Of a stretch of 64,000 nt of DNA, positions 44,195 to 62,750 are shown piece after piece. Position 1 is the stretch's first letter, and each line of letters begins with the position of its first letter. The position numbers were made by a program, and so were the translations under genes. Origin of the DNA: Leucobacter rhizosphaerae. GTDB lineage: Bacteria; Actinomycetota; Actinomycetes; Actinomycetales; Microbacteriaceae. The stretch lies in assembly GCF_022919175.1 (NCBI RefSeq), contig NZ_CP095043.1, forward strand, positions 62,001-126,000. Reading direction: 5' to 3'. Under the pieces are notes generated by a model, which saw nothing but the letters and a program-made list of their open reading frames with translations, ran no database searches and was not told where the DNA came from.

Positions 44195-45871
44195 GTGCCC
44201 AACCCCCCTTACGCCCCGCCCGCACTCGAGAAGGGCACCCTGCGGATCACTCCGCTCGGTGGTCTCGGTGAGGTCGGCCGAAACATGACCGTCTACGAAA
44301 TCGACGGCAAACTGCTCATCGTGGATTGCGGTGTGCTCTTCCCGGAGGTCCAGCACCCCGGCATCGACCTCATCCTGCCCGATATCTCGAAGATCGAGGA
44401 TCGTCTCGGCGACGTGGTCGCCATCGTGCTGACGCACGGTCACGAGGACCACATCGGCGGTGTGCCCTACCTGCTGAAGCGCCGCGAGGACATCCCGATC
44501 ATCGGGTCGAAGCTCACCTTGGCCTTCATCTCGGCCAAGCTCAAGGAGCACCGCATCAAGCCGGTGACCCGCGAGGTCGCCGAGGGCGATCGTGTGCAGT
44601 ACGGCCCGTTCGACCTCGAGTTCATCGCGGTCAACCACTCGATCCCGGACGCCCTCGCGGTCGCGATCCGCACGGAGGCCGGGCTCGTCATCGGCACCGG
44701 CGATTTCAAGATGGACCAGCTGCCCCTCGACGGCCGCATCACCGATCTGCGCGCCTTCGCGCGGCTCGGCGAAGAGGGCGTCGACCTTTTCATGACCGAC
44801 TCGACGAATGCCGACGTCCCGGGCTTCACCCAGTCCGAGAAGAACATCGGACCGGTCATCGAGCAGGTCATCGCGAAGACCCAGGGCAAGGTCGTCGTCG
44901 CGAGCTTCTCGAGCCACGTGCACCGCGTGCAGCAGGTGCTCGACGCGGCGCACGCCAACGGTCGCCGGGTCGTGCTGCTCGGCCGCTCCATGGTGCGCAA
45001 CATGAAGATCGCCGCCGACCTCGGGTACCTCAACGTGCCCGACGGTGTGATCGTCGATCTCAAGAAGAGCGGGGATATTCCGGATCACCGCATCGTCTAC
45101 ATGTCCACCGGCTCCCAGGGTGAGCCCATGGCGGTCCTCAGCCGCATGGTCAACCGCGAGCACCAGGTCGAGGTCGGCGACGGCGACACGGTGATCCTCG
45201 CCTCGAGCCTGATCCCGGGCAACGAGACCTCCGTCTACCGCATCATCGACGGCCTCATGAAGCTCGGCGCGAATGTCGTCCACAAGGGCAACGCGAAGGT
45301 GCACGTCTCGGGCCACGCCTCCGCCGGCGAGCTGCTCTACTGCTACAACATCGTGCGTCCGAAGAATGTGATGCCGATCCACGGCGAGTACCGCATGCTC
45401 GTCGCGAACGCGGCGCTCGCGATCGAGACCGGTGTGCCGCAGAACCGCACGGTGATCGCCGAGAACGGCACGGTCGTCGACCTCGCCGACGGCGTCGCTC
45501 GTGCGGTCGGGCAGATCGACATCGACTTCATCTACGTCGACGGCAAGAGCGTCGGCCGCGTGACGGACGATGACCTGCGGGATCGTCGTACGCTCGCGGA
45601 GGAGGGCTTCATCTCGATCATCACGGTCGTCGAGACGAGCCTGCCGCAGATCGTCTCGGGCCCCGAGATCCACGCCAAGGGTGTGGCCGAGGACCAGAAA
45701 GTCTTCGACTCGATCAAACCGCAGATCGCGGACGCGCTCGAGAAGGCCATGCAGGACGGCATGACCGATCACCACCAGCTCCAGCAGATCGTGCGCCGCA
45801 CGGTCGGTCGCTGGGTCGGGACGAAGCTGCGCCGCAAGGCGATGATCGTCCCCGTCGTGGTGGTGGTGTAG
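44195..45871 (+). CDS. rnj: Ribonuclease J
   Basis: A 558-residue metallo-beta-lactamase/beta-CASP nuclease with endo- and 5'-3' exonuclease activity in RNA maturation and decay. The zinc motif THGHEDHIGG is near residue 79, GTGDFKMD near 165, the beta-CASP motifs FMTDSTNAD, SFSSHVHRVQQ and HVSGHAS near 195, 230 and 370, and a C-terminal helical domain. GTG start with ACAGGAGG upstream. It lies 14 bp after dapA, an order common in actinobacteria. Confidence 0.96.
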   Translation: MPNPPYAPPALEKGTLRITPLGGLGEVGRNMTVYEIDGKLLIVDCGVLFPEVQHPGIDLILPDISKIEDRLGDVVAIVLTHGHEDHIGGVPYLLKRREDIPIIGSKLTLAFISAKLKEHRIKPVTREVAEGDRVQYGPFDLEFIAVNHSIPDALAVAIRTEAGLVIGTGDFKMDQLPLDGRITDLRAFARLGEEGVDLFMTDSTNADVPGFTQSEKNIGPVIEQVIAKTQGKVVVASFSSHVHRVQQVLDAAHANGRRVVLLGRSMVRNMKIAADLGYLNVPDGVIVDLKKSGDIPDHRIVYMSTGSQGEPMAVLSRMVNREHQVEVGDGDTVILASSLIPGNETSVYRIIDGLMKLGANVVHKGNAKVHVSGHASAGELLYCYNIVRPKNVMPIHGEYRMLVANAALAIETGVPQNRTVIAENGTVVDLADGVARAVGQIDIDFIYVDGKSVGRVTDDDLRDRRTLAEEGFISIITVVETSLPQIVSGPEIHAKGVAEDQKVFDSIKPQIADALEKAMQDGMTDHHQLQQIVRRTVGRWVGTKLRRKAMIVPVVVVV

Positions 45872-45874
45872 GTC

Positions 45875-46999
45875 GTGTCGAGCGCCGTCGCGCGTCTCGC
45901 GAGCGGCGCCGGCGTGACGGTGCGCCCCGCGAGCGAGTCGGAACACCGCAACTGGGACGCCCTGGTCGCGGCGAACCCGGGCTCGGGTGAGGTCTGGTCG
46001 GGTGCGTCGTACCTCGACGTCAAGGAGCGCGAGGGCGGCTACCGGCAGTACCGGCTGATCGTCGAGCGCCCCGGGATCGACGGGGCTCCGGCGCGCTCGG
46101 ACATCGCCGTGGCGGTGCTCGCGAAGCGGGTTCCGCTCCTCGGGGAGTGGTGGCACCTGCCGGCCGGCCCCGCGGGCGAGGATTCCGACGCGGTGCTCGA
46201 GGTGGCGACCGCGGTCGCGGCGTTCGCGCGGGATCGCGGCGCCTTTCTGCTCAAGATCGAGCCCCGGGTCGGGATCGACGCGGGGCCCGCGCTCCGCGCG
46301 GCGGGCTTCCGGGATACGGTCCGGATCATTCCGAACCCGTCCACGATCCTCGTCGATGTCTCGGGGGCCGAGGACGAGGTGTTCGCGCGGCTCGGCAAGA
46401 AGGCTCGGAACGCGATCAATCGCGCCCGGCGCGATGGGATCGTGGTGACGCGCGTCGACGCGACCGATGCCCACTGCGCCGAGCTCTACCGCCTGCTGCA
46501 GGAGACCGCCGAGGGGCGGTTCGTGCTCCGCAGCGAGCGCTACTACCGCGAGTTCTGGCAGACCTTCGCGCGTGCCGGCGTCGGGCAGCTCTTCCTCGCC
46601 CACCGGGCCGACGAGGCGGGGGAGCCGCAGCTCGTGGCCGGTGCGTTCGCGATGGCGCTCGGTACGAAGACGACCTACAAGGACGGGGCTTCCGTGCGCG
46701 CGAAGACCGCGTACGGCGCCTCACATGCGCTGCAGTGGGAAGTGCTCCGCTGGGCCTCCGAGCGCGGGGCACTCGTCCACGACCTGTGCGGCGCTCCGCC
46801 GGCCGATCGCGCCGACGACACGACCCACCCGCTCCACGGCGTCGGGCAGTTCAAGCGCTCGTTCGCGCCCGAGATCATCGATTACGTCGGTGCCCTCGAG
46901 CTCCCGCTCCGACCGCGGACGTACGCGATCTGGCAGCGCGTCGGCGACCGCGTGATGCGGCGCTGGTCGCTCGCGGTGCGGAAGGATCCCTACTACTGA
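45875..46999 (+). CDS. FemAB-family aminoacyl transferase, upstream copy
   Basis: A 374-residue protein with two GNAT-like domains. The domain-linking basic helix LGKKARNAINRARRDGI near residue 170 and the C-terminal CGAPPADRADDTTHPLHGVGQFKRSF match the FemX/FemAB peptidoglycan bridge enzymes, which attach amino acids from aminoacyl-tRNA to lipid II on the inner membrane face. GTG start three bases after RNase J. Its stop overlaps murJ by one base. A second family member follows murJ. The amino acid added is unknown. Confidence 0.85.
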   Translation: MSSAVARLASGAGVTVRPASESEHRNWDALVAANPGSGEVWSGASYLDVKEREGGYRQYRLIVERPGIDGAPARSDIAVAVLAKRVPLLGEWWHLPAGPAGEDSDAVLEVATAVAAFARDRGAFLLKIEPRVGIDAGPALRAAGFRDTVRIIPNPSTILVDVSGAEDEVFARLGKKARNAINRARRDGIVVTRVDATDAHCAELYRLLQETAEGRFVLRSERYYREFWQTFARAGVGQLFLAHRADEAGEPQLVAGAFAMALGTKTTYKDGASVRAKTAYGASHALQWEVLRWASERGALVHDLCGAPPADRADDTTHPLHGVGQFKRSFAPEIIDYVGALELPLRPRTYAIWQRVGDRVMRRWSLAVRKDPYY

Positions 47000-48615
47000 T
47001 GGCCAGTCTGATGCGCTCCAGCGCGGTCATGGCGTCGGGCACGATGGTCTCGCGGGTGCTCGGCCTCGTGAAGGCCGTGCTGCTCGCCTACGCGATCGGG
47101 TCGGTCGGCTCGGTGTCCGCCGACGCGTTCGCGAACGGCAACCTGCTGCCGAACACCCTCTACATCATTCTGCTCGGCGGCATGCTCAATGCGGTGCTCG
47201 TGCCGCAGATCGTGCGCGCCGCGAAGAACGCCGACGGTGGCAGCGGATACATCAACAAGATCCTCACGCTCATCTCGGTCGCGCTGTTCGGGGTCACCGT
47301 GCTCGCGATGCTGCTGGCTCCGTGGATCGTCTTCCTGACGGCGGTCGACTGGCCGCCGGAGCAGCTCGCCCTCGCGACGGGATTCGCCTACTGGTGCCTG
47401 CCGCAGATCGTGTTCTACGGGCTCTACACCGTGCTCGGGGAGGTGCTGAACGCGCGCAGCGTGTTCGGGCCGTTCACCTGGGCTCCGGTGCTCAACAACG
47501 TGATCGGGATCGCCGGCATCGTCGTCTTCATCCTCATGTTCGGCGCCGATCCGACGGGCCAGCGCACCGTCTTCGAGTGGGACGCCTTCTCGATCGGCGT
47601 GCTGGGCGGCAGCGCCACGCTGGGCGTGATCTCGCAGGCGCTGATCCTCTTCGTGTCGTGGCGTCGCGCCGGGATCCGGTACCGCCCCGACTTCAAGTGG
47701 AAGGGGATGGGACTCGGCACCACCGCACGGATCGCCGGCTGGAGCCTCGCGACCATCGTCGTCATGCAGCTCGGCGGGTTCATCACGAACAACGTCGTCG
47801 CGACAGGATCGGGCGTCGGCCCCTCCACGAGCGCCATGGGCAATGTCTGGCTGATCTTCATGATGCCGCACTCGGTGATCGCGGTCTCGCTCGCGACCGT
47901 GTACTTCACGCGGCTGGCGGAGTGGGGGCATCAGGGCCGGGTGGCCGAGTTCCGCGCCGACTTCTCCGCCTCGGCCCGCCAGATCTCCCTCGTCATGGTG
48001 CTCGCCGCGAGCGTCCTGTTCGCCGCGGCGCCGTTCGTGAGCCGGATCATGAACTTCGACGCGACCCCCCTGCAGGTCGACCAGTTCGCCCAGGCGCTGC
48101 AGGCGTACGTGATCAGCCTCGCCGCCTACAGCTTCCTGTTCGTCGTGCAGCGCGCGTTCTACGCGCTGTCCGACACGCGCACGCCGTTCGTGTTCACCTC
48201 GGTGCAGATGGGCATCGTGATCCTGCTGTCGCTCACGCTGCTCTTCGCGCCGCGCCCCCTCATCGGTGTGCTCTTCGCGCTCGTGTGGTCGTTCGCGACG
48301 ATCCTGCAGGCGCTCCTCGCGACCTGGTTGCTCCGGCGCCGCCTCGGCCGGATCGACGGCCGCCGCATTGCGCAGAGCCTCGCGAAATTCGTGCTGGCCG
48401 CGATCCCGGCGCTGGTGCTCGGCACGCTCGTGACCTGGGGCGCCCGGGCGCTGCAGCCGGAGTTCGGCGCGGGGTTCTCGATCCTCGCGAGCTGCGCGGT
48501 GGGCGCTGTCGTGGCCGTGGTCTACCTGGTGGGGCTCCGCCTCCTCCGGTCTTCGGAACTCGGTGAGCTCACCGGTTTCATCAGCAGCAAACTCGGAAGG
48601 AACCGTTCTCGATGA
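46999..48615 (+). CDS. murJ: Lipid II flippase MurJ
   Basis: A 538-residue polytopic membrane protein of the MurJ/MviN family with about 14 spans, moving lipid-linked peptidoglycan precursor across the membrane. MRSSAVMASGTMVSRVLGLVKAV at the N-terminus, the NGNLLPNTLYIILLGGMLNAVLVP segment near 45 and NARSVFGPFTWAPVLNNVIGI near 155 are characteristic. There is no large C-terminal pseudokinase domain such as in mycobacteria. It is overlapped at both ends (TGATG and ATGA) by the two FemAB-type genes, implying coupled synthesis. Confidence 0.93.
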   Translation: MASLMRSSAVMASGTMVSRVLGLVKAVLLAYAIGSVGSVSADAFANGNLLPNTLYIILLGGMLNAVLVPQIVRAAKNADGGSGYINKILTLISVALFGVTVLAMLLAPWIVFLTAVDWPPEQLALATGFAYWCLPQIVFYGLYTVLGEVLNARSVFGPFTWAPVLNNVIGIAGIVVFILMFGADPTGQRTVFEWDAFSIGVLGGSATLGVISQALILFVSWRRAGIRYRPDFKWKGMGLGTTARIAGWSLATIVVMQLGGFITNNVVATGSGVGPSTSAMGNVWLIFMMPHSVIAVSLATVYFTRLAEWGHQGRVAEFRADFSASARQISLVMVLAASVLFAAAPFVSRIMNFDATPLQVDQFAQALQAYVISLAAYSFLFVVQRAFYALSDTRTPFVFTSVQMGIVILLSLTLLFAPRPLIGVLFALVWSFATILQALLATWLLRRRLGRIDGRRIAQSLAKFVLAAIPALVLGTLVTWGARALQPEFGAGFSILASCAVGAVVAVVYLVGLRLLRSSELGELTGFISSKLGRNRSR

Positions 48616-49649
48616 GCCCAGAAGCCTCGCGCGCGCCGCTCACCGTCGTCCCGTGCACCGATCGTGCGCAGTGGGACGACACGGTCAACGCACTCGGCGG
48701 GCACCCGCTCCAGCTCTGGGGCTGGGGAGACCTGAAGTCGGCGCACCGCTGGAGCGCGGAGCGCGTGCTCGTGCACGCGGGCGACGCGATGGTGGGTGCA
48801 TGCCAGCTGCTCACCCGGTCGCTCCCGGGCCCGCTCGGCGGCTTCGTGTACGCCCCGCGCGGCCCGGTCCTCGCCCGTGCCTCGGACTCGGACGGTCCCG
48901 CTCCCGAGCCCGCCCCGGGTGCCGTGGCGGACGCGGTCGCCGACTACGTGCGCGGCTCGCGGCGTGCGGTTGCCGTCTCCATCGAGCCCGATGAGGACGC
49001 GGGCGACGTCCCGCTGGGTCCGGACTGGCGGGCCGCCCAGACGCCGGTGCTCCCGGCGCGGACGCTGATCCTCGACCTGCGGCAATCGGAGGACGCACTG
49101 CTCGCCGACATGAGCAAGAAGCATCGTCAGTACGTGCGCAAGTCGGCACGGGAGGAATCCCTCGAGATCCGCGCCGTCGAGACCGCGGAGCAGCTCGACG
49201 CCTGCCTCGAGGTCTACCGCGAGACGAGCGAGCGCGCCGATTTCGGGCTGCACGAGGACTCGTACTACCACGACGCCTTCACGATGCTCGGCGACGACGC
49301 CCCGGTGTGGGCGAGCTACGTCGACGGCAAGCCCGTCGCGTTCCTCTTCCTCGCCAAGTCGGCGCGCACCTCGTTCGAGCTCTACGGCGGCATGAACGAC
49401 ACCGGGCAGCGCCTCCGCGCGAACTACGCGCTCAAGTGGCACGCGATCCGCGCCATGCGCGAGCTCGGGATCGAGCGCTACGACTTCGGTGGACTGATCA
49501 ATGACGGGGTCACCACGTTCAAGACCGGCTTCGCGTCGCACGAGAATCTCCTCGCGGGATCGTGGGATCGCCCGGGGCCGGGGTACCGGATCTGGACCGA
49601 GGGGCTCCCGCTCGCGAAGCGAGTGGTGCGCGCGCTCCGACGTCGCTGA
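48612..49649 (+). CDS. FemAB-family aminoacyl transferase, downstream copy
   Basis: A 345-residue relative of the protein encoded upstream of murJ, but diverged in sequence. The N-terminal LQLWGWGDLKSAHRWSAERV, the basic helix MSKKHRQYVRKSAREESLEI near residue 165 (split here at MSKKHRQYVRKS) and the C-terminal YDFGGLINDGVTTFKTGF identify the family. ATG shares ATGA with the murJ stop. Two non-identical copies suggest a two-step cross-bridge or two amino acids. Confidence 0.85.
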   Translation: MSPEASRAPLTVVPCTDRAQWDDTVNALGGHPLQLWGWGDLKSAHRWSAERVLVHAGDAMVGACQLLTRSLPGPLGGFVYAPRGPVLARASDSDGPAPEPAPGAVADAVADYVRGSRRAVAVSIEPDEDAGDVPLGPDWRAAQTPVLPARTLILDLRQSEDALLADMSKKHRQYVRKSAREESLEIRAVETAEQLDACLEVYRETSERADFGLHEDSYYHDAFTMLGDDAPVWASYVDGKPVAFLFLAKSARTSFELYGGMNDTGQRLRANYALKWHAIRAMRELGIERYDFGGLINDGVTTFKTGFASHENLLAGSWDRPGPGYRIWTEGLPLAKRVVRALRRR

Positions 49650-49781: not shown

Positions 49782-52670
49782 ATGGCCACCAAAGCTTCGT
49801 CGCGCGGAAAATCTGGGAAGCCCGCAGCCCGGGGTTCCCGGAGCACCGGTACGCAGACGAGCGCTCGCACGCGGGTGCTCGCGGAGGCGGAACCGACCGA
49901 GGGCGTGCTCGTGCGCGCCTGGAACGGTCTCGCGCACGCCGTCGGGGGTGCCGCACGGGCATTCCGGCTGGAGCCGCTCGCGAGTGAGGATCGCCGCGAC
50001 GGGATCCCGATGCTGCTCGTCCTGCTCGCCGTGATCGGCGCCGTCGTCGAGTGGTTCCTCATCGGGCAGCCGGTCGCCCTGCAGCTCGACGCGTGGACCT
50101 TCGGCGGGCTCTTCGGGCGCGTGGCCTTCGGCCTGCCCATCATCATGGTCGGGTTCGCGCTGTGGCTCTTCAACCACCCGTCGAGCGTCAACGACAATCG
50201 GCGCATCGCCATCGGGCTCTTCCTCGCCATCACGAGCATCGCGGGCCTCACGCACGTCTACGGCGGGCGTCCCACGCCGAGCGAGGGCATGCTCGCGCTG
50301 GCGGAGGCCGGCGGGCTCCTCGGATGGATGGTCGGGGCCCCGCTGCTCGCGCTCACGGTGTGGGTGGCGACGCCCGTGCTGTCGCTCCTGCTGGCCTTCT
50401 CCATCCTCATCATCACCAAGACGCCTCCCGGGCGCATCGTGCGCCGACTGGGGGAGGCCTACGCGTTCCTGTTCGGCGTGGGAGACGCGTCGGCCGAGGA
50501 CGCCGAGGCGAGCCCGCAGCCGACGGCGCGCGAGCGCCGCAGCGCGCGGAAGGACAACACCCTCTTCGATCTCGACGAGCAGGAGGGCGACGTCGGCTCG
50601 GTGCCGTGGTGGCGTCGCAACAGCTCGGGCCGCGAGGAAGACCCGGAGTACGCGGGCGATCAGGACGCGCTCGAGAGTGCGCTCGACGGATCGGCGGTCG
50701 ACGCGAGCCACGCCTTCGACTCCGCGCTCGCCCCGGAACCGGCGACCGGCGTTTTCCCCACGGATCTCTTTGACGAGCTGGATCAGGCCGAGGCCGCGGT
50801 GCAGGCTGCCGGGATCACCCCGGCCTCCGGGCTGAACGACGACTCCTGGGGCGTCGACGAATCGACCACGACGGCGCTGCCCGCCTCCGAGGACCCCGCG
50901 ACGACCACCCCCTTCGTCGTCGCGCCGCCGCACGAGCCGACCCAGGTCGAGTACCACCTCCCGGATCAGGCGACGCTGTCCGCCGGAGACGCGCCCAAGG
51001 CGCGCACCGAGGCGAACGACGTCATCATGGCCGCCATCGCCCGCGTCTTCGAGGAGTTCAAGGTCGACGCGAATGTGACCGGGTTCTCCCGAGGCCCGAC
51101 CGTGACGCAGTACGAGGTCGAGCTCGGCCCCGGCGTCAAGGTCGAAAAGGTGACGGCGCTGTCGCGCAACCTGTCGTACGCGGTCGCCTCGAACGAGGTG
51201 CGGATCCTCTCGCCGATCCCGGGCAAGAGCGCCATCGGCATCGAGATCCCGAACAAGGATCGCGAGAATGTCGCGCTCGGCGACGTGCTGCGCTCCGCGA
51301 AGGCCCAGCGCAGCCCGCACCCGCTCACGATCGGCGTCGGCAAGGACGTCTCCGGCGGATTCGTCGTGGCCAACCTCGCGAAGATGCCGCACCTGCTCGT
51401 CGCGGGATCGACCGGTTCGGGCAAGTCGAGCTTCGTGAACTCGATGATCACGAGCCTGCTCATGCGCGCGACCCCGGCGGAGGTCCGTATGGTGCTCGTC
51501 GACCCGAAGCGCGTCGAGCTCACCGTCTACCAGGGCGTGCCGCACCTCATCACCCCCATCATCACGAACCCGAAGAAGGCGGCCGAGGCGCTGCAGTGGG
51601 TCGTCAAAGAGATGGACATGCGCTACGACGACCTCGAGAGCTTCGGGTTCAAGCACATCGACGAGTTCAACAAGGCCGTGCGCTCCGGCGGCATCGTGCT
51701 GCCGGAGGGCAGCCAGCGGGTGCTCAAGCCGTACCCCTACCTGCTGGTCGTCGTGGACGAACTCGCGGACCTCATGATGGTCGCACCGCGCGACGTCGAG
51801 GACTCGATCGTCCGCATCACCCAGCTGGCCCGCGCCTCGGGTATTCACCTCGTGCTCGCGACGCAGCGGCCCTCGGTCGACGTGGTGACCGGCCTCATCA
51901 AGGCAAACGTGCCGAGCCGCCTGGCGTTCGCGGTCGCGTCGGTCACCGACTCCCGCGTCATCCTCGACCAGCCCGGCGCGGACCGCCTCATCGGCCAGGG
52001 TGACGGGCTTTTCCTGCCCATGGGAACCTCCTCCGCGCTCCGGGTGCAGGGCGCGTGGGTCGAGGAGTCCGAGATCAACCGCGTGGTCGCACACGTGAAG
52101 GCGCAGGCGCGCCCCGAGTACCGGGCGGATGTCGCGCAGGCCGCCGAGAAGAAGGAGATCGACGCGGATATCGGCGACGATCTCGACGTGCTGCTCGCCG
52201 CCGTCGAATTGGTCGTCACCTCGCAGTTCGGCTCGACCTCGATGCTGCAGCGGAAGCTCCGTGTCGGGTTCGCGAAAGCCGGTCGCCTCATGGACCTCAT
52301 GGAGTCCCGCGACATCGTCGGACCCTCGGAGGGCTCCAAAGCCCGCGATGTGCTCGTGACACCGGATCAGCTCGCAGAGGTGCTCGGTCGGATCAAGGGG
52401 TCGCCCGCTCCCGCACCGGCCGCGCCTGCTGCGCCGGCGTCCGCTCCTGCCGCGCCGACCCAGGCACTGGCACCCGCGGTCGCGCCGAGCGCGCCGGCCG
52501 ATGCGGAGGGGGCCACCGACGTGATCGATCCGCTCACGGAGTCTGGCGCGTCCGACGACACCATCGATGACCGCTACGACGATCCCGTGGCCAAGTATCA
52601 AGCGACACTCGATGAGGTCGAGGGTGAGCCCGATGAGGACGCCTGGCAGCTGACGGGACGCGACTCGTGA
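49782..52670 (+). CDS. ftsK: DNA translocase FtsK/SpoIIIE
   Basis: A 962-residue septal DNA pump that clears chromosomes and activates XerCD at dif. After a basic N-terminus there are four or five spans (about residues 68-210), a charged Ala/Asp-rich linker to about 390, the motor with Walker [15 protein letters not shown] near 545 and Walker [12 protein letters not shown] near 655, and the DNA-reading gamma domain [20 protein letters not shown] near 815. The last 70 residues are a Pro/Ala tail. Its stop overlaps the pgsA GTG. Confidence 0.95.
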
Positions 52671-61151: not shown

Positions 61152-62750
61152 ATGACACAACGATCTTCAGCAGACCGAGACTCCAGCACGGCACCGACGC
61201 GGGGGTCCGCAGGCGATCCCTCGACCACCTCGCAGGATCCGCTCGACCGGGTGCTCGCCCGCGCCGAGGGCGCCGGCGGCGCCACGGTGATCCGCGATCT
61301 CACGAGCGGTGCGCAGGCGCTCGGCGACGAGTCCCACGACCAGCTCGCGGAGGATCTCGACGCGATTCGCATGGAGCGCGCCGACCGCGCGTCGCTCAAG
61401 CGCGTCGCCGGGCTGTCGACCGAACTCGACGACGTCACGGAGGTCGAGTACCGGCAGCTCCGCATCGAGAACGTCGTGCTCATCGGCATCTACTCCCAGC
61501 GCTCGACGGAGGACGCGGAGAATTCGCTCCGTGAGTTGGCCGCACTCGCCGAGACGGCCGGAGCCGTGGTGCTCGACGGCCTGCTGCAGCGACGCGCGAA
61601 CCCGGATCCCGCCACCTACCTCGGCAAGGGCAAGGCCCAGGAGCTCGCGGAACTCGTCGCGGCCGTGGGCGCCGATACCGTGATCGCCGACACCGAACTC
61701 GCGCCGAGCCAGCGGCGCGCGCTGGAGGACGTGGTGAAGGTCAAGGTGATCGACCGCACCGCGGTGATCCTCGACATCTTCAGCCAGCACGCGAAGAGTC
61801 GTGAGGGGAAGGCCCAGGTCGAACTGGCGCAGCTCGAGTACCTGCTGCCGCGGCTGCGCGGCTGGGGCGAGTCGATGTCGCGGCAGGCGGGCGGCCAGGT
61901 CGGATCCGCCGGCGCGGGCATGGGCTCGCGCGGCCCCGGTGAGACGAAGATGGAGCTGGATCGCCGGAAGATCCACACCCGCATGTCGAAGTTGCGCAAG
62001 CAGATCCAGGGCTTCGCACCCGCACGCGAGGCGAAGCGGGCGAACCGCAAGCGCGGCGAGGTGCCGTCGGTCGCGATCGCCGGGTACACCAACGCCGGCA
62101 AGTCGAGCCTGCTGAATCGGCTGACGGGCACGCAGGAGCTCGTGCAGAACCAGCTCTTCGCGACCCTCGACACGGCGATCCGTCACGCCGAGACCGACGA
62201 CGGACGCCGTTTCACCTACGCCGACACCGTCGGATTCGTGCGCAACCTGCCGCACCAGCTCGTCGAGGCGTTCCGCTCGACATTCGAGGAGGTCGGCGAC
62301 GCCGATGTGATCCTGCACGTCGTCGACGGCTCCCACCCGGATCCGGTCGCGCAGCTGCGCACCGTGCGCGACGTGGTTGCGGAGGTCGATGCGCAGGACA
62401 TCCCCGAGCTCGTCGTGTTCAACAAGGCCGACCTGATCGACGAGTCGCAGCGCCTCGTGCTGCACGGGCTCGCCCCCGACGCCGTGTTCGTCTCGGCGCG
62501 CACGGGCGAGGGCGTGGAGGAGCTCCGGCGGCGGGTGGACGCCGCGATCCCGGTGCCCGACCGTGAGGTGACCGTGGTCGTCCCGTACGACCGCGGTGAG
62601 ATCGTCGCCGAACTCCACGAGCGCAACCGGGTGGTGTCGACGGAGTACGTCGAGGCCGGCACGCGGGTCCGCGCGTTCGTAACGGCGGAGATGCTGTCGA
62701 AGCTCGAACCGTACCTGGAGTTCGAGACGATCGACGTCGACCGCGGCTGA
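61152..62750 (+). CDS. hflX: GTPase HflX
   Basis: A 532-residue GTPase that splits stalled or hibernating ribosomes. The N-terminal HflX domain has the signature GSRGPGETKMELDRR near residue 257 after a glycine-rich GGQVGSAGAGM; the G domain carries G1 GYTNAGKSSLLNRL near 313, DTVGFVRNLPH near 360 and NKAD near 425. The first 70 residues are a poorly conserved extension. ATG has GGAGG upstream; a TACACT -10 (61137-61142) nine bases away would give a leader of a few bases at most. Confidence 0.95.
   Translation: MTQRSSADRDSSTAPTRGSAGDPSTTSQDPLDRVLARAEGAGGATVIRDLTSGAQALGDESHDQLAEDLDAIRMERADRASLKRVAGLSTELDDVTEVEYRQLRIENVVLIGIYSQRSTEDAENSLRELAALAETAGAVVLDGLLQRRANPDPATYLGKGKAQELAELVAAVGADTVIADTELAPSQRRALEDVVKVKVIDRTAVILDIFSQHAKSREGKAQVELAQLEYLLPRLRGWGESMSRQAGGQVGSAGAGMGSRGPGETKMELDRRKIHTRMSKLRKQIQGFAPAREAKRANRKRGEVPSVAIAGYTNAGKSSLLNRLTGTQELVQNQLFATLDTAIRHAETDDGRRFTYADTVGFVRNLPHQLVEAFRSTFEEVGDADVILHVVDGSHPDPVAQLRTVRDVVAEVDAQDIPELVVFNKADLIDESQRLVLHGLAPDAVFVSARTGEGVEELRRRVDAAIPVPDREVTVVVPYDRGEIVAELHERNRVVSTEYVEAGTRVRAFVTAEMLSKLEPYLEFETIDVDRG

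Follow-up and report, generated by a model that had tools for sequence, protein, structure and literature searches.

Two predicted FemX-type aminoacyl transferases are encoded around, and coupled to, the only MurJ of Leucobacter rhizosphaerae

Enzymes of the FemABX family take an aminoacyl group with its activated carboxyl from tRNA and transfer it to an amine. In a B-type peptidoglycan bridge, the first bond is formed between an amine and the D-Glu alpha-carboxyl. The Microbacteriaceae are recorded as B-type (general knowledge and a few papers), and to our knowledge little is established about the enzymes behind the B-type cross-bridge. Among described FemABX proteins, the best structural match to those considered here is FemX of Weissella viridescens (WvFemX; a UDP-MurNAc-pentapeptide-lysine alanyltransferase; PDB 1ne9, 4ii9). 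Here we describe a femX1-murJ-femX2 triplet in Leucobacter rhizosphaerae, found in a 64,000-nucleotide window (the whole stretch of DNA analysed, positions 62,001 to 126,000 of contig NZ_CP095043.1). Given the translational coupling of two FemX-type enzymes to the sole MurJ, a module to ‘extend the precursor and flip it’ is the most economical reading of the triplet, and we consider an extend-and-flip module likely.

All three genes lie on the forward strand. Both femX1 (45875-46999; 374 aa, with a GTG start as listed) and femX2 (48612-49649; 345 aa) encode proteins well above the Pfam FemAB cut-off of 24 bits, at 86.4 and 93.6 bits, respectively. The murJ product (46999-48615; 538 aa) scores 233.1 bits against PF03023 (cut-off 27.4) and 254.6 bits against TIGR01695 (cut-off 235.55), matches that suggest a lipid II flippase. 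The femX1 TGA stop ends on the A that opens the murJ ATG, and an ATGA is common to the murJ stop and the femX2 start. These one- and four-base overlaps, pointed out by an earlier sequence-only reading of the window, are real at 45875-49649 and are kept in relatives: among the distinct loci measured, the femX1/murJ overlap is 1 base in 22 of 26 (exceptions L019, L053, L221 and the decayed copy L225) and the murJ/femX2 overlap is 4 bases in 27 of 29 (exceptions L052 and the frameshifted L051). In the genome, which is one contig of 3.34 Mb, femX1 and femX2 are the only FemAB matches at E <= 0.001, and murJ is the single match to PF03023; TIGR01695 at E <= 10 adds just a 13-bit match elsewhere. 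With just these two FemAB genes and one MurJ in the genome, their grouping is not due to chance.

AlphaFold2 models of FemX1 and FemX2 (pLDDT 91.2 and 92.5) both find WvFemX as their best PDB match (TM 0.67-0.75 by query length), sharing its double-GNAT fold over nearly the full length at just 18-20% identity. A profile of each protein searched against the PDB likewise finds WvFemX, along with S. aureus FemA and the lipid II:glycine glycyltransferase, and one of the PDB entries matched by the models has ‘K36M mutant’ in its title. The positions of WvFemX Lys36 and Lys305 are kept in both proteins. In FemX1 they align with Lys50 and Lys327, of which Lys327 is invariant and Lys50 nearly so among 15 FemX1-type sequences, and in FemX2 with Lys42 and Lys304, both invariant in 19 FemX2 sequences (the FemX2 site of G298, with stops in the requested frame, was left out of the FemX2 alignment). 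Lys36, Lys305 and Arg211 are presumably functional residues of WvFemX. FemX1 and FemX2 would be aminoacyl-tRNA-dependent transferases with an amine acceptor on a precursor. Unlike WvFemX, they are coupled to murJ and occur in a genus with diaminobutyrate (DAB) in its wall.

The triplet sits in a slot between rnj (RNase J; 44195-45871, forward strand; Pfam RNase_J domains at 44201-45868, start codon placed by eye), whose stop is separated from femX1 by 3 bases, and ftsK (49782-52670, forward strand; FtsK_SpoIIIE, FtsK_alpha and FtsK_gamma; open reading frame (ORF) from 49686, ATG at 49782 placed by eye). Upstream lie thymidylate synthase, dihydrofolate reductase, DapA and the RNase J; downstream of FtsK come a CDP-alcohol phosphatidyltransferase (pgsA) and CinA. 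The best FemX2 matches in named genomes come from Leucobacter records and are 76-84% identical with the same gene order, except for strain OH1287 at 60%. All three genes lie between rnj and, where it is reached, ftsK in 13 of 16 Leucobacter-titled loci; two others are truncated, and OH1287 lacks femX1 there. The metagenome-assembled genome Microbacteriaceae YM.44 (L053) also has all three.

We searched 54 Leucobacter genomes, of which 45 gave a match to the FemX2 query and 53 had MurJ, and sorted them into classes by match coordinates and by the loci read. In class A (29 of 54), a FemX2 orthologue (at least 76% identity) lies directly beside murJ, as it does in every genome that has one (29/29); femX1 was in the slot in all 13 of these that were read, and 13 more have a FemX-like match across murJ. 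The remaining classes hold femX1 and murJ (class B, nine genomes), femX and murJ with a reversed femX (class C, four), femX1 with a reversed murJ-femX-femX group (class D, four; in G526 the group spans about 20 kb, 2 kb of it unread), or murJ without FemX in the slot (class E, seven). One genome, G524, which is 76% complete, gave neither a FemX nor a MurJ match. Across the 37 slots read (13, 9, 4, 4 and 7 for classes A to E), which were chosen for holding a FemX or MurJ match and some of which are on short contigs, murJ was present in every one while FemX content varied. In three slots without femX2, an M23 peptidase ORF (by Pfam) lies between murJ and ftsK (L200:11289-12716 in class B, L204:3945-5447 in class D and L213:6599-7978 in class E). 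We read the rnj-ftsK slot as a modular locus in which murJ is fixed and FemX genes are swapped, added or lost.

Several other copies and variants turned up in the genus. In six Leucobacter genomes (G486, G491, G499, G500, G509, G510) there is an additional, distant MurJ at another place, with 36-40% identity, and G492 holds a decayed second femX-murJ-femX copy (L225, G492:C1:2812000-2823343) in addition to an intact one. The femX2 of Leucobacter coleopterorum (L051, L227) is frameshifted, which may be real or a sequencing error.

In most of the relatives sampled, murJ is found at another site. Of 20 MurJ loci picked from relatives (L118-L137), 19 are on the oriC side, next to trxB and parB; in the exception, L128, murJ is between rnj and ftsK without FemX. 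The L. rhizosphaerae oriC site (DUF6049, trxB, parB) gave no match for murJ. Given this absence, and given that a MurJ tree places the triplet MurJ within those of the Microbacteriaceae, murJ has, on our reading, moved rather than been replaced; the tree was a quick one, midpoint-rooted with four outgroup rows, and on the same placement we rejected replacement by a foreign copy. An aminotransferase and a Ddl-like ATP-grasp gene lie between trxB and parB in 18 of the 20 loci (e.g. L120:12211-14542). This pair also had no match at the L. rhizosphaerae oriC site, and the oriC sites of G337 and G307 lack both it and murJ. We considered the pair as possible B-type enzymes since it is missing together with murJ at oriC in three triplet or FemX-murJ genomes, and dropped it: Actinomyces oris has the same order (NUDIX, DUF6049, MurJ, trxB, trxA, thrC, aminotransferase, ATP-grasp), and the pair is absent from the G079 locus (L122).

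The sequence-only reading had proposed that the triplet is a bridge-building and flipping module that could be the machinery of the B-type bridge. The coupling of two FemX-type transferases to the sole MurJ supports the first half of this proposal; the second half is largely refuted by distribution. MurJ was found in all 199 Microbacteriaceae genomes, whereas a FemX2 query matched 27 (eight with at least 47% identity), a 12-sequence FemX profile matched 29 in 20 of 78 genera (5 weakly), and the other 170 genomes of this B-type family gave no FemX match at E <= 0.001. Within Leucobacter itself, the seven class E genomes have murJ and no FemX in the slot. Outside the family, among the best 80 of 246 matches (a genus missing from which proves little), the nearest relatives of FemX2 lie in Saccharibacteria and, as single genes with 50-58% identity, in Arthrobacter, Oerskovia, Cellulosimicrobium and Myceligenerans, hosts that we take to be A-type. 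The chemistry also runs the wrong way, as the FemABX reaction is the reverse of what the D-Glu alpha-carboxyl bond needs. The triplet did not prove equally common in A-type actinobacteria: a FemAB match occurs in 133 of 297 genomes across the order, and in 40 FemAB regions of its other families, hand-picked among the matches listed, murJ was present in four (L156, L158 and L159 of family f3, L188 of f17). In these four, FemAB lies within a few kb of murJ but not in one operon with it (in L158 a FemAB gene flanks murJ on each side, with the opposite orientation), and the femX-murJ-femX operon was found in none of the 40. The genus is recorded as B-type (PMC4804768) and the triplet is coupled to the sole flippase, which speaks for a role of the triplet in building the bridge on D-Glu and coupling it to flipping; distribution and chemistry led us to reject it as general B-type machinery, and we regard such a role as very improbable.

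In a FemX tree, FemX2 falls in a supported clade with genes of Arthrobacter, Oerskovia, Cellulosimicrobium, Myceligenerans, Flexivirga and Saccharibacteria, and FemX1 adjoins Saccharibacteria genes. This was a quick tree with some long branches, built from ORFs of 270-560 aa only, which drops some FemAB loci (e.g. L164-L166). Removal of identical rows took the FemX set from 158 to 153 and the MurJ set from 50 to 47, and short or repeated loci (L001-L017, L138-L144) were left out of both trees. Also left out was L062, a contig filed as Vibrio cholerae 35D that carries an actinobacterial-type FemX2 (57% identity) and is probably assembly contamination. Several Saccharibacteria loci (L059, L065, L071, L089, L093, L114 and others) carry FemX1-like and FemX2-like genes a few kb apart, but on opposite strands and with no murJ detected using the window’s MurJ; the FemX1-like gene of L114 has a single gene between it and a Mur ligase. 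Saccharibacteria TM7i (L113) has a FemX2-like gene in the stretch examined. Plasmid records related to FemX2 number 18, all below 60% identity and mostly from Azospirillum.

Taken together, the triplet is probably, though by no means certainly, a Leucobacter-lineage operon for modifying a wall precursor and flipping the product, so that a wall on record as B-type would contain bridges or branches made by A-type-like chemistry. FemX1 and FemX2 would add L-amino acids, in tRNA-dependent steps that precede flipping, to a free amine of DAB on a UDP- or lipid-linked precursor, and the sole MurJ, encoded between them, would flip the modified product. For FemX2, threonine is our best guess. Five of the six Leucobacter strains in Table 1 of PMC4804768 contain Ala, Gly, Glu, Thr and DAB with cross-link B, the sixth, L. 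komagatae, has GABA and no Thr and is also B, and L. chironomi has both Thr and GABA and is B-type (PMC4511665). The B-type Rhodoluna lacicola is given without Thr (PMC4156110), and in the Arthrobacter group some species have threonine bridges and others do not (PMC4786123, PMC8369764).

A number of points weigh against this reading. L. salsicius, for which no Thr is listed in the hydrolysate (PMC4148977), carries the triplet (L045), the one clear exception to threonine as the FemX2 amino acid. The Leucobacter cross-link is called B where it is stated (PMC4804768, PMC4511665), and the literature searched held no muropeptide structure for Leucobacter. Three of the 29 genomes with a FemX2 orthologue (G488, G503, G523) have no reported FemX-like match across murJ. 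The position of WvFemX Arg211 is Arg in FemX1 and His in most FemX2. Threonine bridges in the A-type relatives of FemX2 are presumed, as the papers found do not state them for those hosts. Both proteins score far below the 500-bit cut-off of the NCBIfam equivalog NF047883 (lysine N6-alanyltransferase FemX), at 43.7 and 36.4 bits, so that their substrate cannot be read from the family.

The variability of the slot, which takes up an M23 peptidase and reversed femX genes, would also fit a gene-exchange hotspot in which FemX would function apart from flipping and its place in one operon with murJ would be accidental. The relatives of FemX2 in Arthrobacter, Oerskovia, Cellulosimicrobium and Myceligenerans are consistent with such independence, as no murJ or FemX1-like gene was found in the flanking DNA that was read (at most 10 kb on each side). 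An accidental association is harder to reconcile with exact overlaps kept across the genus, with murJ adjoining every FemX2 orthologue, and with the further murJ-femX neighbours in G407, G451 and G372 and in the four regions of other families, and we think it unlikely. A target outside peptidoglycan (a lipid or a secondary metabolite, for instance) would be in keeping with fold matches to streptothrisamine-binding aminoacyl-tRNA-dependent peptide synthases and to MprF; the best sequence and fold matches are nevertheless FemX and FemA, which together with the linkage to murJ makes a target of this kind improbable.

A by-product of the analysis points to a different candidate enzyme for the B-type bridge. 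Of 120 Microbacteriaceae genomes, 88 have a MurT_C match, and we read 56 of these (59 loci), comprising all 15 with a best match below 1e-19 and 41 chosen by hand. Of these loci, 58 in 55 genomes contain a GatD (L273, where none was found, was left out of the GatD counts). Fifteen GatD loci, belonging to exactly the 15 genomes whose MurT match is strongest, retain the cysteine that aligns with S. aureus Cys94; it is absent from 43 (L240:6421-8432 and 42 more among L241-L297), where the position is G in 25, A in 7, H in 7, S in 2, N in 1 and Q in 1. Only cysteine-less GatD occurs in 40 of the 55 hand-picked genomes with GatD, and G353 and G403 have one pair of each kind. The position of His189 is His in 15 of 15 cysteine-containing GatD vs 20 of 43 that lack Cys94, and 26 of the 43 have no cysteine anywhere. 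In MurT the P-loop GK[S/T/G] is kept in 59 of 59; of the 43 MurT proteins paired with a cysteine-less GatD, however, 14 lack the Asp of SWxxD and about half have changes in the KN of the KNP motif, which may mean that some pairs have degenerated instead of taking on a new role. In S. aureus, GatD Cys94Gly is reported to have abolished lipid II amidation, and murTgatD is described as universal in Actinobacteria (PMC6085368); the string ‘microbacteri’ is absent from the main text of that paper. A search of an open literature library returned no paper on MurT or GatD in Microbacteriaceae genera or in relation to peptidoglycan types, nor any on FemAB in Microbacteriaceae or on type B peptidoglycan in Microbacterium. 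As a candidate for the ligase of the B-type bridge, the pair of MurT and a GatD lacking the cysteine is preferable to the triplet.

FemX tracks the state of GatD. Taking as without FemX any genome not among the 29 matched by the profile, FemX occurs in 10 of 15 genomes with intact GatD and in 3 of 40 with only cysteine-less GatD (Fisher p 2e-5, weak matches taken as without; 6 of 40 and p 4e-4 if weak matches are counted), p-values that overstate the association because the genomes are related and the tree needs just two state changes. We count this co-occurrence in favour of the proposed precursor-modifying operon. It also raises the possibility, which we hold only tentatively, of a two-locus switch that sets Microbacteriaceae walls. 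In ordinary B-type members MurT would still activate the D-Glu alpha-carboxyl, GatD without its cysteine would supply no ammonia, and a diamino acid would be ligated instead. In Leucobacter and some relatives an intact MurT-GatD, retained or regained, would amidate D-Glu, and their bridges would be built from the third-position diamino acid through swappable FemX around a relocated murJ. Against such a switch, Leucobacter is recorded as B-type yet its GatD is intact, five intact-GatD genomes have no FemX match, and 32 of the 120 Microbacteriaceae genomes have no MurT_C match.

These results remove FemX-MurJ-FemX as a general answer to the B-type bridge and put MurT with cysteine-less GatD forward as a sharper candidate; the cysteine-less GatD is the most useful lead of the analysis. 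They also make the flippase gene the fixed point of a locus that exchanges aminoacyl transferases between species, and the rnj-ftsK slot offers a natural experiment for asking whether flipping and wall chemistry are matched. If the two-locus switch were true, the recorded B-type of Leucobacter and some of its relatives may be wrong or mixed.

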